From contig CAAEAB010000169.1 in the NCBI GenBank assembly GCA_900753685.1, positions 1-17,039 of the forward strand: a stretch of DNA of 17,039 nt. The letters run 5' to 3'. The notes under the pieces were generated by a model that had not been told where the DNA came from, did no database searches, and saw nothing but the letters and a program-made list of their open reading frames with translations. How positions within the stretch are numbered: position 1 is the first letter of the stretch; each line of letters starts with the position of its first letter. Shown one piece after another: positions 6,993 to 11,448 of the stretch. This DNA is from Lachnospiraceae bacterium (GTDB lineage Bacteria; Bacillota; Clostridia; Lachnospirales; Lachnospiraceae). A program made the translations under genes and the position numbers.

Positions 6993-7019
6993 ATAGCAAA
7001 CAAAACTGTATTCATCATT

Positions 7020-7126
7020 TACTTCTTTCATCCAGACTATACTGTCGGCTTCGGAATTTCACCGAATCGGCCTTTCGGCTCGTGGGCTTTACCACCGGTA
7101 GGGACTTTCACCCTGCCCTGAAGTAT
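7020..7126 (-). ncRNA. FMN riboswitch aptamer (RFN element)
   Basis: Read on the minus strand, the conserved RFN blocks appear in order: AGGGCAGGGTGAAAGTCCC, ACCGGTGGTAAAGCCCACGAG, a variable hairpin GCCGAAAGGC, GGTGAAATTCCGAAGCCGAC, and AGTCTGGATGAAAGAAG. The closing P1 helix is formed by TACTTC (7120-7125) and GAAGTA. Binding of FMN is expected to favour the terminator at 6955-6992 and so repress ribD-ribE-ribBA-ribH and the two genes behind them. No aptamer core position looks obviously broken. Confidence 0.96.
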
Positions 7127-7145
7127 TATTTAATTTACCTTATCT

Positions 7146-7174
7146 ATCATAATCCTTTTTATATGTAATGTCAA
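7146..7174 (-). promoter_or_regulatory. Near-consensus sigma-A promoter of the riboflavin operon
   Basis: The minus strand reads TTGACA (7169-7174), 17 nt, then TATGAT (7146-7151). The predicted transcription start is near 7139, a few bases before the aptamer. The -35 box overlaps the stop codon of the upstream 427-aa gene, and no terminator lies between them, so read-through from that gene could also enter the riboswitch. Confidence 0.8.
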
Positions 7175-8454
7175 GCCCTTTGCTGATAATCCAGCACTGC
7201 AGACAATTGGGCCATTTTCTCCTTAAGTTCTTTCAGCGTCATCCCTTCTGACATGCTCAAATCACCAAAAACTGCGCCGTTTCGACGTCCGCCGTCAAGA
7301 AAAAAGCAATCCATACTGGTACATTTCCGATAATCAATGTTCGTGTTTTTCGGAAGCATCATTCCGGTAACCGGTGTGATCCAATACTGCCCGTCGACAA
7401 TACTCTCAATAAAATCAAAATAAATAAATTTCTTTTTTTCATTCAGGTAGGCATATTGACGTTTATAAATATTGGAAACTTCGATAAAATCCGGCTGTGA
7501 AACAGCCATATAGGATGGATAGCTCCCTTTCCAGCCATGTTCAGAAAAAATCTTCTGAAGCTTTTCACGAATATAAGAACGGAAATTACTCATATCACGG
7601 TCGCATTCATACAATCCTTGCTGATCCCGACCACACTCTTCCAACAAATGATTCAAGGTTTTGAAAATAATATTTCCTTTTAAGGAACGAAGTGTGTATA
7701 ATAATTCCTGTATCAATTCCTTATCATTCCCCTTGTTTTTTGAAAAGCATCCAGACAAACGTCTCAATCCAAGACCTGCAAAAAAATCTGCACCCTGCTG
7801 CATCTGGCTCGAATCCAACGTCCACGCTACAGCATCTGAATCGTAAAGCACTGTCGACTTTCCAAAACCAATTTTTGTCGTCGGAGATAAATAAAGCTGG
7901 AAGTATGGCTTCAAAAATTTGAAGATTTTCAAGGCTTCCAGTTCATGCACATTCAAGTAATTCTCACCCAACACCTGACATTTCTTCTCGATTGCCTCCA
8001 AAGTTTCATAGACAAGATTCCACGGAAGTCCAATCGAATCGCTCCCCGGTTTTATCGTATGCACATGATAATTCCACAGACGGACGCCGCCTCGAAGGGA
8101 TGCAAAGGAAAATGCACCTTCCTTTGCCACCTGACCCTCCCCGGCCGAAGCCAGCCGATTCATAAAGCTCAGTCGGTAACGTCCATCCGCCAAACGCTCT
8201 CCGCGAAGACTATCCATAAAAATTTCTTTTGGATGACGTCCATCCTCAATTAACACATCCTGAAATTCTATGTCAATTGCAAATCCCTGGCACATTTGGA
8301 CATTTACCAGAAAATTCCGGTCTTTAATCTTATAAGGTATTTTCCGTTTTCCAACGAGTTCCCGATAAAACGCCAGCAGTACCTTCTGCTCTTCCGTATG
8401 AAATTGTTGAACGAACTGATGAAATGCTTCATCCACAAAGTCATGATTCGACAT
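7171..8454 (-). CDS. Uncharacterised 427-aa protein
   Basis: I do not recognise this protein securely. It may belong to one of the clostridial domain-of-unknown-function families (DUF3878 is a guess I cannot verify). It has no signal peptide, membrane segment or obvious catalytic motif. It is a soluble, mixed-charge protein with a conserved-looking middle block (RLWNYHVHTIKPGS) and an aromatic C-terminal block (KKFIYFDFIESIVDGQYW, then TPVTGMMLPKNTNIDYRKC). Scattered cysteines do not form a clear metal site. The ATG at 8454 follows AAGGGGC at good spacing, and coding is supported by a long uninterrupted frame with codon use like its neighbours. It lies between maf and the riboflavin operon on the same strand and has its own likely promoter, so its function cannot be deduced from context. 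Confidence 0.8.
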   Translation of the reverse strand: MSNHDFVDEAFHQFVQQFHTEEQKVLLAFYRELVGKRKIPYKIKDRNFLVNVQMCQGFAIDIEFQDVLIEDGRHPKEIFMDSLRGERLADGRYRLSFMNRLASAGEGQVAKEGAFSFASLRGGVRLWNYHVHTIKPGSDSIGLPWNLVYETLEAIEKKCQVLGENYLNVHELEALKIFKFLKPYFQLYLSPTTKIGFGKSTVLYDSDAVAWTLDSSQMQQGADFFAGLGLRRLSGCFSKNKGNDKELIQELLYTLRSLKGNIIFKTLNHLLEECGRDQQGLYECDRDMSNFRSYIREKLQKIFSEHGWKGSYPSYMAVSQPDFIEVSNIYKRQYAYLNEKKKFIYFDFIESIVDGQYWITPVTGMMLPKNTNIDYRKCTSMDCFFLDGGRRNGAVFGDLSMSEGMTLKELKEKMAQLSAVLDYQQRA

Positions 8455-8521: not shown

Positions 8522-9124
8522 TCATTCTTTATTTTCAATGACAATCTTGCGCGTTATCTCATCTTTCATCAGTCGCTGCCAGATCTGCGCCACCGGCAGT
8601 CCGACCACGTTATTATAGTCCCCATGAATCTCCTGTACGAGGACGCAGCCTTGTCCCTGGATTGCATAGCTTCCCGCTTTATCCATCGGCTCGCCGGTCC
8701 GAATATATTCGATCAATTGTTCCTCATCCGCCGGATACATCGTCACATCTGTTTTTTCATAAAATACCTGAGCTTTATCCGACGTCATCATGCAAACCCC
8801 TGTATAAACCTGGTGGGTCTTTCCCTGAAGAAACCAGAGCATCTTAAGGGCGTCCGCTTCATCCTTCGGTTTCCCTAAGATAATATTATCCAAGGCCACA
8901 ATCGTATCCGCTCCGATGACTAACACATCTGTTTTTTCATCCTCGCCAACCTGACCAAATATATCTTCCGCTTTATCCATAGCAAGCCCCATAACCACCT
9001 GGGCCGGGCGGTTTCCCTGCATCCTTTCTTCCTTATGACTCGGCATAATTTCAAATTTTAATCCAATCTGTGTTAAAAGCTCCCGTCGTCTTGGAGATGC
9101 GGACGCTAATATAATTTTACTCAT
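8522..9124 (-). CDS. maf: Maf-type nucleoside triphosphate pyrophosphatase
   Basis: Maf/YhdE/YceF proteins hydrolyse nucleoside triphosphates, including dTTP, UTP and modified nucleotides, to the monophosphate, and are linked to septum control and house-cleaning. The 200 residues are full length. Family signatures are the N-terminal LASASPRRRELL (S8 to R13), VIGADTIVALD, ILGKPKD, HQVYTGVC, and the C-terminal GSYAIQGQGCVLV with GDYNNVVGLP. The ATG at 9124 follows GGGAGGA. It starts 63 nt after the TIGR03915-type gene, with a candidate promoter in the gap, so it may be both read through from the SOS-box operon and separately expressed. Confidence 0.95.
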   Translation of the reverse strand: MSKIILASASPRRRELLTQIGLKFEIMPSHKEERMQGNRPAQVVMGLAMDKAEDIFGQVGEDEKTDVLVIGADTIVALDNIILGKPKDEADALKMLWFLQGKTHQVYTGVCMMTSDKAQVFYEKTDVTMYPADEEQLIEYIRTGEPMDKAGSYAIQGQGCVLVQEIHGDYNNVVGLPVAQIWQRLMKDEITRKIVIENKE

Positions 9125-9187: not shown

Positions 9188-9958
9188 TTATTTTCCCATC
9201 ATCTCCGGCAGATTGCTCCAATACATTTTCGGCATCATATTCATGCGGCACCGGGGATTTTCCCGTTCTTTGATACCAATAGTTTCGTAAAAGCTTCTCC
9301 ACCACTGCTCAAACTGTTTCTGACTGTCAGATACATCCGAGATGGCCCGCAAGGCCGGAGTTACATCCTTTGCAATCCACCACCCCTTGCCGACTTCATG
9401 AACACATACCTCATGCCGCCGTTCATCATAAATCATCCAGTTTTCCATGGGATATCTGTCAGCAAAATGATCGGCAGCCAGCGGAAGCTGATGATGTTTC
9501 GGCGCGATTTTGGCAAAAAGAATGCCGTTACTCAATTCCTCAAAACGTACAAATCCATAAAAATGATCTTTTTCCCGCGAGACCTCCCTATCGAGCTTAT
9601 AGAGCCGATTTACCGCCGGATCCGTAAACTGCTCTGTCACCCTTCTGCCAATGCGAAAGCCACGCACAAGAAATCGATAAATCGTGTCCGCTTTATCCAT
9701 ATGACAGGACATGGCCCCGTATTTTACCATATGCCAGGCATAACCGGAAATTTTATGAATCACCGCATCGGCCACCCGGGCTGCCTTATCCATATCTGTC
9801 TCTACACGGATCATCTCCGCAAACAAGGAAGGCTCCACATAATCCCCAGCTTCAATAGACTGATATTCATGGCCGTAGCGACTCATATAGGCGGCATGGA
9901 CAGCAGATAAAATGCCTTCCAAAGAATCTTCACACATATAAATTCTCGGCGTTTTCAC
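9188..9958 (-). CDS. TIGR03915/DUF4130-type probable DNA metabolism protein, partner of the radical SAM protein (GTG start)
   Basis: This 256-residue protein matches the family annotated as a probable DNA metabolism protein, whose members always accompany the radical SAM family TIGR03916. In many genomes the partner is fused to a uracil-DNA glycosylase-like domain; here it stands alone. Visible are the N-terminal CEDSLEGILSAVHAAY, a middle RFLVRGFRIGRRV, and the C-terminal DUF4130 block with RFEELSNGILFAKIAP, YPMENWMIYDERRHEV and NPRCRMNMMPKMYWSNLPE. I start it at GTG 9958, which overlaps the radical SAM stop in a GTGA and is preceded by GGAGG 7 nt upstream. A longer ATG version from 9997 would begin with an unlikely Gly-rich leader inside the upstream gene. 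No catalytic residues are known to me. Tight overlap suggests 1:1 production and probably a complex. Confidence 0.85.
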   Translation of the reverse strand: MKTPRIYMCEDSLEGILSAVHAAYMSRYGHEYQSIEAGDYVEPSLFAEMIRVETDMDKAARVADAVIHKISGYAWHMVKYGAMSCHMDKADTIYRFLVRGFRIGRRVTEQFTDPAVNRLYKLDREVSREKDHFYGFVRFEELSNGILFAKIAPKHHQLPLAADHFADRYPMENWMIYDERRHEVCVHEVGKGWWIAKDVTPALRAISDVSDSQKQFEQWWRSFYETIGIKERENPRCRMNMMPKMYWSNLPEMMGK

Positions 9959-11301
9959 ACAACCACCTCCCGAAGGGTTGGCAGCGGGATCTGCCACCGA
10001 TTGTCCTGACTATCATCAAATAAAGAAAGCTGATGATAGCCGGAAATAGATTCTAGAACCTCGGCGGGCAGCCGTTCATGTACAGAAAGAAGATTCCGCG
10101 TAATGGCATCCTCATTAAAATTGATTCGGTACATCATCTTTCCTGAACAGGTAATAAAATACACTGCTCGCTTCAAGACAATCCCCATTTTCTTTAAATC
10201 ATTATAATTTAATGTGGCATGGCGTCTTGCCATGCAAATCCGCCGGGCACCGGTCACACCAATTCCCGGAACCCGCAAAAGCATTTCATAGGATGCCCTA
10301 TTTACTTCCACCGGAAACTTGTCAAGATTTCGCAGCGCCCAGTCACATTTTGGGTCTAATGCAATATTAAAGGAACTGTGCTGTTCACTCAGAAGTTCAT
10401 CCGCCTTAAAACCATAATACCGCAGCAACCAATCCGCCTGATACAGACGGTGTTCCCGCAAAAGCGGCGGCTTAGTATCTACTGCCGGAAGCAGATGATC
10501 TTCATTGACCGCCACATAGGCCGAATAAAATACCCGCCGCAGGGCAAATTTCTTATATAAGGCTTCCGCCACCGAAATAATCTGATAATCACTTTCCGGC
10601 GTAGCACCGACAATCACCTGGGTACTCTGCCCCGCCGGAACAAACTTCGGCGCATGGCGGTACACTGTCAATTCTTCCTTATTCTGCAAAATCCCCTGCT
10701 GCACCTGCCGCAACGGCTTTAATATCGTCTTTCTGTCTTTATTCGGCGCAAGCTTTTTCAGTCCTTCCGCTGTCGGCAGCTCAAGATTACAGCTCATTCG
10801 ATCCGCATAAAATCCGGCTCTCCGAATCAAATCTTCATCTGCGCCCGGGATCGACTTCACATGTATATAACCATGAAACTTGTATTTATCCCTTAAAAGC
10901 TGCAAAGTCTCCAGAATAAGCTCCATCGTATAATGGGGATTTTTCACCACACCGGAACTTAAAAACAACCCTTCGATATAATTTCTCCGATAAAAGCCCA
11001 TCGTCAGCTGACAAATTTCTTCCGGAGTAAACGTCGCCCTCGGTACATCATTGCTCAAACGGTTTTTGCAATATTTACAGTCATAAATACAGTCATTCGA
11101 CAAAAGAATCTTTAACAAAGATATACACCGGCCGTCGGAAGCAAAGCTGTGGCAAATCCCACAGGCTCTGGAATTTCCCATTCCCTGACCGCCGCTTCTC
11201 CGGTCCACACCCGAAGATGTACAGGCCACATCGTACTTGGCCGCATCCGCCAAAATCATCAATTTTTCCTGTAATGGCTCCTTCGCCGCCATATATTCCA
11301 T
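9955..11301 (-). CDS. Radical SAM protein, putative DNA modification/repair (TIGR03916 type)
   Basis: This 448-residue radical SAM protein of unknown chemistry is presumed to act in DNA repair or modification because the family is linked to uracil-DNA glycosylase-like partners. The 4Fe-4S motif is C71-x3-C75-x2-C78 (CIYDCKYC). Three more cysteines lie just before it (C47, C50, C59) in ACGICHSFASDGRC. The C-terminal part has a helix-hairpin-helix DNA-binding region (about 333-360, LLRVPGIGVTGARR). Near the end, Q424-F428 reads QLSLF, a match to the bacterial sliding-clamp-binding consensus. I choose ATG 11301 because AAAGGAGG sits 7 nt upstream; the ATG at 11322 lies before that site. The stop overlaps the next gene. 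LexA-like boxes cover its promoter. Confidence 0.88.
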   Translation of the reverse strand: MEYMAAKEPLQEKLMILADAAKYDVACTSSGVDRRSGGQGMGNSRACGICHSFASDGRCISLLKILLSNDCIYDCKYCKNRLSNDVPRATFTPEEICQLTMGFYRRNYIEGLFLSSGVVKNPHYTMELILETLQLLRDKYKFHGYIHVKSIPGADEDLIRRAGFYADRMSCNLELPTAEGLKKLAPNKDRKTILKPLRQVQQGILQNKEELTVYRHAPKFVPAGQSTQVIVGATPESDYQIISVAEALYKKFALRRVFYSAYVAVNEDHLLPAVDTKPPLLREHRLYQADWLLRYYGFKADELLSEQHSSFNIALDPKCDWALRNLDKFPVEVNRASYEMLLRVPGIGVTGARRICMARRHATLNYNDLKKMGIVLKRAVYFITCSGKMMYRINFNEDAITRNLLSVHERLPAEVLESISGYHQLSLFDDSQDNRWQIPLPTLREVVV

Positions 11302-11408
11302 TTCTCTGCCTCCTTTAGTCATCGTAAATCATCTGAGCATCCATTATGGTCGAATTATTCTTTGCCAATTACCTGCTTACGGCATCATTGATATTCATAT
11401 ACGAATCA

Positions 11409-11437
11409 ATTATACCACACATTTGTTCGTATTTCAA
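11409..11437 (-). promoter_or_regulatory. Promoter of the radical SAM / TIGR03915 operon
   Basis: The minus strand reads TTGAAA (11432-11437), 17 nt, then TATAAT (11409-11414), a strong sigma-A-type promoter. The predicted start near 11402 gives a leader of about 100 nt. Two LexA-like boxes overlap the -35 box and fill the spacer, which would allow tight repression. Confidence 0.75.
11416..11429 (-). promoter_or_regulatory. LexA (SOS) box 2, imperfect
   Basis: The minus strand reads CGAACAAATGTGTG. The left half is identical to box 1 and the right half has one departure from GTTY. It sits inside the promoter spacer, 19 bp from box 1 measured start to start, so LexA dimers could occupy both. 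Confidence 0.5.
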
Positions 11438-11448
11438 ACATTTGTTCG
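11435..11448 (-). promoter_or_regulatory. LexA (SOS) box 1
   Basis: The minus strand reads CGAACAAATGTTTG, matching CGAAC-N4-GTTY, the Gram-positive LexA/DinR operator core, at all fixed positions. It overlaps the -35 hexamer of the radical SAM operon promoter. Confidence 0.75.

Follow-up and report, generated by a model that had tools for sequence, protein, structure and literature searches.

Predicted LexA boxes in the promoter of a radical SAM/DUF4130 operon of Lachnospiraceae and upstream of its orthologues

LexA control of two Clostridium acetobutylicum genes, CAC3343-CAC3344, was previously predicted from footprinting and expression data (PMC3828012). A two-gene operon with a uracil-DNA glycosylase, COG1573-COG4277, was predicted to be SOS-regulated in Bacteroidetes, and the same paper cites earlier reports of this operon in Verrucomicrobia and Alphaproteobacteria (PMC8565304). 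In addition, a protein named like the TIGR03916 radical SAM protein is reported to be upregulated on desiccation in Acinetobacter (PMC13130816). Here we analyze positions 11409 to 11448 of a contig from a Lachnospiraceae bacterium (CAAEAB010000169.1, 17,039 nucleotides, the whole of which is called the window), where two predicted LexA boxes lie in the promoter of an operon formed by a TIGR03916 radical SAM (S-adenosylmethionine) gene and a TIGR03915/DUF4130 partner gene. We take COG4277 to be the TIGR03916 family. A preliminary description of this DNA, made from the letters alone, had proposed that the double box ties a poorly understood radical SAM family to the SOS response; the conserved LexA-type boxes support this tie, but it is not new for the family and is not first reported here, as it was predicted in C. 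acetobutylicum (PMC3828012) and, in other phyla, for what is taken as the same operon (PMC8565304).

From the region and its conservation we infer LexA binding, repression, induction and the chemistry of the gene products: the region would be a LexA-repressed SOS promoter, and the pair would be induced by damage and would repair or process a DNA lesion, a reading to which we give a probability of about 0.92.

Operator and promoter at 11409-11448

The minus strand from 11448 to 11409 reads CGAACAAATGTTTGAAATACGAACAAATGTGTGGTATAAT and contains the following features:

11435..11448, minus strand: predicted LexA box 1, CGAACAAATGTTTG, an exact CGAACN4GTTY match with 9 of the 10 fixed positions of CGAACN4GTTCG
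11416..11429, minus strand: predicted LexA box 2, CGAACAAATGTGTG, with 8 of the 10 fixed positions of CGAACN4GTTCG
11409..11437, minus strand: sigma-A-type promoter TTGAAA-N17-TATAAT, with 11 of 12 consensus bases and a TG ahead of the -10

The -35 element TTGAAA occupies 11437-11432 and the -10 element TATAAT 11414-11409, separated by a spacer of 17 bp. Box 1 overlaps the -35 element by its final three bases, while box 2, which starts 19 bp from the start of box 1, is located entirely within the spacer and fills most of it. On direct reading, the double box agrees with the preliminary description in sequence, strand and coordinates, and the same is true for the exact fit of box 1 to the CGAAC-N4-GTTY core and for the promoter having one box over its -35 and the other in its spacer. 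This placement, which covers the -35 and the spacer of a promoter with 11 of 12 consensus bases, is compatible with a block of transcription initiation, and the tight repression expected in the preliminary description is inferred from it. The 14-mer of box 1 is identical in Frisingicoccus caecimuris (locus L001), a member of the Lachnospiraceae and the nearest relative used, whose radical SAM protein is 92% identical to that of the window.

Boxes upstream of TIGR03916 genes and the LexA of the lineage

Of 299 genomes from the family, 169 have a TIGR03916 match above the cut-off, as do 27 of 119 from the phylum; the 30 family loci used are the best-scoring of the 169. Upstream regions were anchored on a conserved motif near the protein start, giving 87 deduplicated regions. 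Left out were L026, L030 and L040 (no anchor, the upstream region being cut by a contig end), L031 (no anchor, with one 8/10 box), L065 (duplicate of L008), L091 (same genome as L001), L104 (short) and L119 and L120 (partial and below the cut-off). A box was counted when it kept at least 8 of the 10 fixed positions of CGAACN4GTTCG. Results showed such boxes in 30 of 36 regions from the window protein's relatives, 29 of 29 in the family sample, 12 of 20 in the phylum sample and 2 of 2 for the window and Lachnospira eligens, with dinucleotide-shuffle means of 2.3, 2.3, 1.1 and 0.1, respectively. Seven loci without an anchor (L004 and L113-L118) were added by hand via the start of the match, bringing the Bacillota set to 94 regions; at least one box was present in 79 of them and at least two in 52. 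Elsewhere in these loci, 56 of 1565 windows of 300 bp had one. Of 6 loci from a divergent TIGR03916 subfamily, 5 had boxes, including two at 10/10.

Forty further Lachnospiraceae regions, hand-picked among the listed matches that lacked a locus, all carried at least one box (38 by script and 2 re-read after a wrong anchor; shuffle mean 2.74 of 40), and 27 carried at least two. Shuffles never gave more than 2 two-box regions in any group. Taken together, 119 of 134 orthologue upstream regions possess a box. Moreover, a count of all 4-mer dyads over the 87 regions, with no motif given beforehand, found GAAC-N4-GTTT in 48 of them, for a null of 0.3, and ranked it first of 122,552 dyads. The upstream scan for LexA boxes, which the preliminary description had suggested, is thus strongly positive, and a lack of enrichment before orthologues, which it had named as grounds for giving up the idea, was looked for and not found.

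We also considered which motif the LexA of these bacteria reads, using 26 lexA-type loci (F. caecimuris and 25 phylum genomes carrying TIGR03916), 25 of which have an open frame. The LexA of F. caecimuris is a 245-amino-acid open frame whose DNA-binding domain scores 91.9 bits, and the region upstream of its gene contains three boxes of at least 8/10. Over F. caecimuris and the other Bacillota, a box precedes 23 of 25 lexA genes. Judged by the motif alone, the LexA of this lineage would use a CGAACN4GTTCG-type motif. A different LexA motif, another objection foreseen in the preliminary description, was not found by this indirect test, the same motif standing upstream of the congener's lexA and recA and of those 23 lexA genes.

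Other classes of bacteria bear on the same question. From a plasmid collection with 158 matching records, 21 were hand-chosen among the 60 listed, mostly for different genera: 14 alphaproteobacterial (including two Azospirillum and two Paracoccus), 1 betaproteobacterial and 6 others, of which Lachnospira eligens (L089) is counted among the 94 Bacillota regions. A perfect GTTCN7GTTC/GAACN7GAAC motif was found upstream of 14 of the 14 alphaproteobacterial orthologues, 13 times within 50 bp of the start, for a background of 1 in 626 windows of 126 bp; a stricter script returned 13 of 14, as it placed the start of L127 where the match begins, upstream of the ATG, and the box overruns that limit. 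In the one betaproteobacterium, Caballeronia (1 of 1), the Escherichia coli-type motif CTGTATAAATATACAG lies 29 bp before the gene and is one of only two CTGTN8ACAG places in a 685-kb plasmid. The operon carries, in each of three groups, the motif that LexA of that group reads, so its control would follow the motif of the lineage. That the motif tracks the LexA type in three groups is the strongest argument for LexA, and not another regulator, as the selecting factor. None of these motifs was seen in the Acinetobacter (L121), Fusobacterium (L122), Phocaeicola (L123) and clostridial Subdoligranulum (L129) records, and in Gemmatirosa (L090), where the gene start was not located, no box was seen.

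TIGR03916 relatives also turned up in ten phage-labelled records, eight "Bacteriophage sp." from faeces and two "Acinetobacter phage MD-2021a" of 240 kb, labels that may be wrong.

The F. caecimuris genome holds CGAACN4GTTYG at five places, before lexA, recA, the TIGR03916 operon, a small helix-turn-helix-like frame and a frame matching an RNA-dependent RNA polymerase (RdRP) model. The lexA box region (L042, 1770-1783) also precedes a divergent gene for a small LysM protein, which to us is reminiscent of the SOS division inhibitor YneA. A strict box at L046 (1501-1514) lies about 100 bp before the small helix-turn-helix-like frame, recognized by reading and followed by a D12 adenine methyltransferase gene. 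Another strict box (L045, 1501-1514; also L187) is 28 bp ahead of a 930-amino-acid open frame, the first 495 amino acids of which match PF05183 (RdRP) with an expect value (E) of 4.7e-7; we presume that this frame is YonO/QDE-1-like. PF05183 was found in 14 of 250 family genomes by a six-frame search that missed F. caecimuris itself, and 2 of 16 RdRP-like frames have 8/10 boxes within about 300 bp upstream. In L194 and L195, the RdRP-like and TIGR03916 genes diverge from each other, with starts about 0.4 and 0.6 kb apart and LexA-type boxes inside or at the edge of the interval; in L195 there follow more open frames that give a phage-like impression.

Alternative explanations and proposed function

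Several observations weigh against control by LexA and have to be set beside this conservation. The LexA assignment is taken from the congener F. caecimuris and not from the window's own genome. Boxes of 8/10 are missing from 15 of the 94 Bacillota regions, among them that of congener L003, whose two boxes reach 7/10 and are spaced by 20 bp, and those of L010, L012, L014, L015 and L017 (Clostridium/Clostridia bins), which have pairs of 7/10 matches. The phylum sample contributes 8 box-less regions out of 20, and six of these (L092, L097, L099, L100, L105 and L112) come from LexA-bearing genomes, so that the tie between box and presence of LexA is incomplete. The case for the window rests on the Lachnospiraceae result, which these six leave unaffected. 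L092 and L100 keep the core GAACN4GTTY, and in the genome of L097 the organism's own lexA gene (L143) is also without a box, which makes a changed LexA motif possible there. Two further box-less regions fit the LexA model, since among the 26 phylum genomes that of L101 has no LexA match and that of L111 only one below the cut-off.

Motif counts taken by themselves would even allow the dyad to be a chance feature, an AT-rich palindromic promoter stretch that happens to resemble a LexA box. With at most one mismatch, CGAACN4GTTY occurs 8 times in the window for 6.13 expected, a number that 62 of 200 shuffles reach, and CGAACN4GTTYG has 6 strand-hits (those five places) in the F. caecimuris genome, where the reversed control pattern has 5. 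As neither count is above expectation, a claim of significance from motif counts alone was dropped, and significance rests on position and conservation. The recurrence of the box in 119 of 134 orthologue regions and the first rank of the dyad in the motif-free count make chance practically negligible as an explanation. A different repressor, for example of phage type or another helix-turn-helix protein, could in principle read a site of the same GAAC-N4-GTTC form, and the congener indeed encodes a second frame with a LexA-type DNA-binding domain, of 96 amino acids. We consider this very improbable, given that the motif is the one found before lexA and recA of the congener and before 23 of 25 lexA genes, and that the Alpha- and Betaproteobacteria examined carry the LexA motif of their own class, which another regulator would not readily explain.

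Doubt is better founded for box 2, as box 1 may be the only working LexA operator, with box 2 a copy that has decayed or arose by chance and adds little. The second half-site of box 2 reads GTGTG instead of GTTCG, which breaks the GTT, a point that also counts against the double operator as a whole. In close relatives the second box is weak: L001 has a window-like layout with a second box of 7/10 at 19 bp, L003 reaches 7/10 in both boxes, and in L002 the one good box is 58 bp from the next match. On the other hand, two or more boxes are common (52/94 and 27/40, for no more than 2 such regions per group in shuffles), and the second match retains a spacing of 19-20 bp in L001 and L003. We regard a single working box as possible but rather doubtful. 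Concerning the layout, a promoter was called in 73 regions, and in 45 of them a box falls in the -35, the spacer or the -10; the commonest arrangement, which combines a spacer box with another no more than 45 bp downstream, accounts for 25 of the 73, and that of the window, with one box over the -35 and one in the spacer, for a single one. A double box is common, and its exact placement in the window looks like a variant of the genus.

Under the preferred reading, that of a LexA-repressed SOS promoter, LexA dimers would sit in the undamaged cell on the two boxes, over the edge of the -35 and in the spacer, and would block RNA polymerase. Upon DNA damage, RecA-stimulated self-cleavage of LexA would free the promoter, and the operon encoding the TIGR03916 radical SAM protein and its DUF4130 partner would be transcribed. 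The pair would then repair or process a DNA lesion by radical chemistry, with a weakly matched C-terminal helix-hairpin-helix perhaps serving as its grip on DNA. A wider proposal, which we offer tentatively and rate a little short of an even chance, is that the pair is a core SOS function placed under LexA in at least three classes with three LexA motifs; in anaerobic Clostridia it would provide a dedicated, UdgX-free, damage-induced radical repair of a lesion not known to be handled by any characterized enzyme, and UdgX would have been added in Proteobacteria. We found no known substrate for the TIGR03916 radical SAM family, and the LexA-type boxes before the gene point to DNA damage as the condition in which to seek it. 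Such boxes precede the radical SAM gene in almost every sampled member of the Lachnospiraceae, a family common in the gut.

The gene pair, its surroundings and its place among known SOS systems

The identity of the operon downstream of the promoter, as named in the preliminary description, holds, as both genes score above their NCBIfam cut-offs:

9955..11322, minus strand: TIGR03916 radical SAM gene, NCBIfam 690.2 bits for a cut-off of 343.5
9188..9997, minus strand: TIGR03915/DUF4130 partner gene, NCBIfam 243.5 bits for a cut-off of 112.25, and DUF4130 178.3 bits

The open frames of the partner gene and of the radical SAM gene end overlap. By reading, the start codon of the radical SAM gene is probably the ATG at 11301, which follows AAAGGAGG, leaving a leader of about 100 nucleotides. 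The radical SAM protein has a CxxxCxxC motif and matches PF04055 and a C-terminal HHH_3 (helix-hairpin-helix), each below its gathering cut-off. When solved structures were searched by sequence, the radical SAM profile hit a ComEA-type protein (E 1.4e-4) through the helix-hairpin-helix part and radical SAM enzymes with E values of at least 0.019; DUF4130 hit a single ferritin (E 0.054).

The TIGR03915 partner is present in 89 of 101 loci (tblastn). L113 and L116, which are divergent and gave no tblastn match, have at the place of the partner a DUF4130 gene above the Pfam and below the NCBIfam cut-off; L097, L101 and L118 gave no tblastn match to the DUF4130 protein of the window. L079 and L080 have a TIGR03915-UdgX fusion as partner, and in further alphaproteobacterial records the next gene, of similar length, is annotated "UdgX family". 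The Acinetobacter, Fusobacterium, Phocaeicola and Subdoligranulum records have a partner that matches TIGR03915 alone, as in the window, where the TIGR03915 protein gave no match to TIGR03914 (UdgX). UdgX as a component of the clostridial system was ruled out, with 0 of 27 Bacillota genomes above the TIGR03914 cut-off; matches below it in 17 of the 27 are taken as ordinary uracil-DNA glycosylases. This suggests that the constant partner would be DUF4130 rather than UdgX.

No RNA element was found in the operon leader, the sole Rfam match of the window above its gathering score being a flavin mononucleotide (FMN) riboswitch located elsewhere (7016-7129, minus strand, 119.1 bits), ahead of open frames at 6783-3268 (minus strand) that read, unscored, as a riboflavin operon. 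Beyond the pair lie a Maf gene (8522-9124, minus strand) and a DUF3878-like gene (7171-8454, minus strand), the latter a weak match under the Pfam cut-off. The two had little support as fixed members of the operon, as the window's versions adjoin the pair only in L001, L002, L003 and L005. This synteny comparison is limited to flanks of up to 4 kb in the 41 loci from relatives of the window protein, since the flanks of about 1.5 kb at the other loci are too short to reveal DUF3878. Lachnospira eligens (L089) has an annotated DUF3878 gene directly after the pair.

Compared with described systems, the closest case is CAC3343-CAC3344 of C. acetobutylicum, which differs in being a prediction for one species; the available text of PMC3828012 gives no survey of Clostridia, double box or promoter anatomy, and CAC3343 is assigned to TIGR03916 by its name. 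A literature search, judged mostly by titles, made no clostridial survey of the radical SAM/DUF4130 operon apparent, and the term "radical SAM" is absent from the main text of the Clostridioides difficile LexA paper. The alphaproteobacterial operons that we saw fit the COG1573-COG4277 arrangement, from which the Clostridia examined differ by a stand-alone DUF4130 partner without UdgX and by the Gram-positive LexA motif. Spore photoproduct lyase, SplB, is likewise a radical SAM enzyme of DNA repair and is SOS-regulated in several species, but according to PMC8565304 it is COG1533, whereas the window protein is TIGR03916 with 690.2 bits and gave no hit to an SplB model at E 0.001. Finally, the operator resembles the classical Gram-positive SOS promoters of lexA, recA and uvrB, with their GAACN4GTTY boxes, often several per lexA promoter (motif as given in PMC4234289), and differs from them in that it would control a radical SAM/DUF4130 pair.
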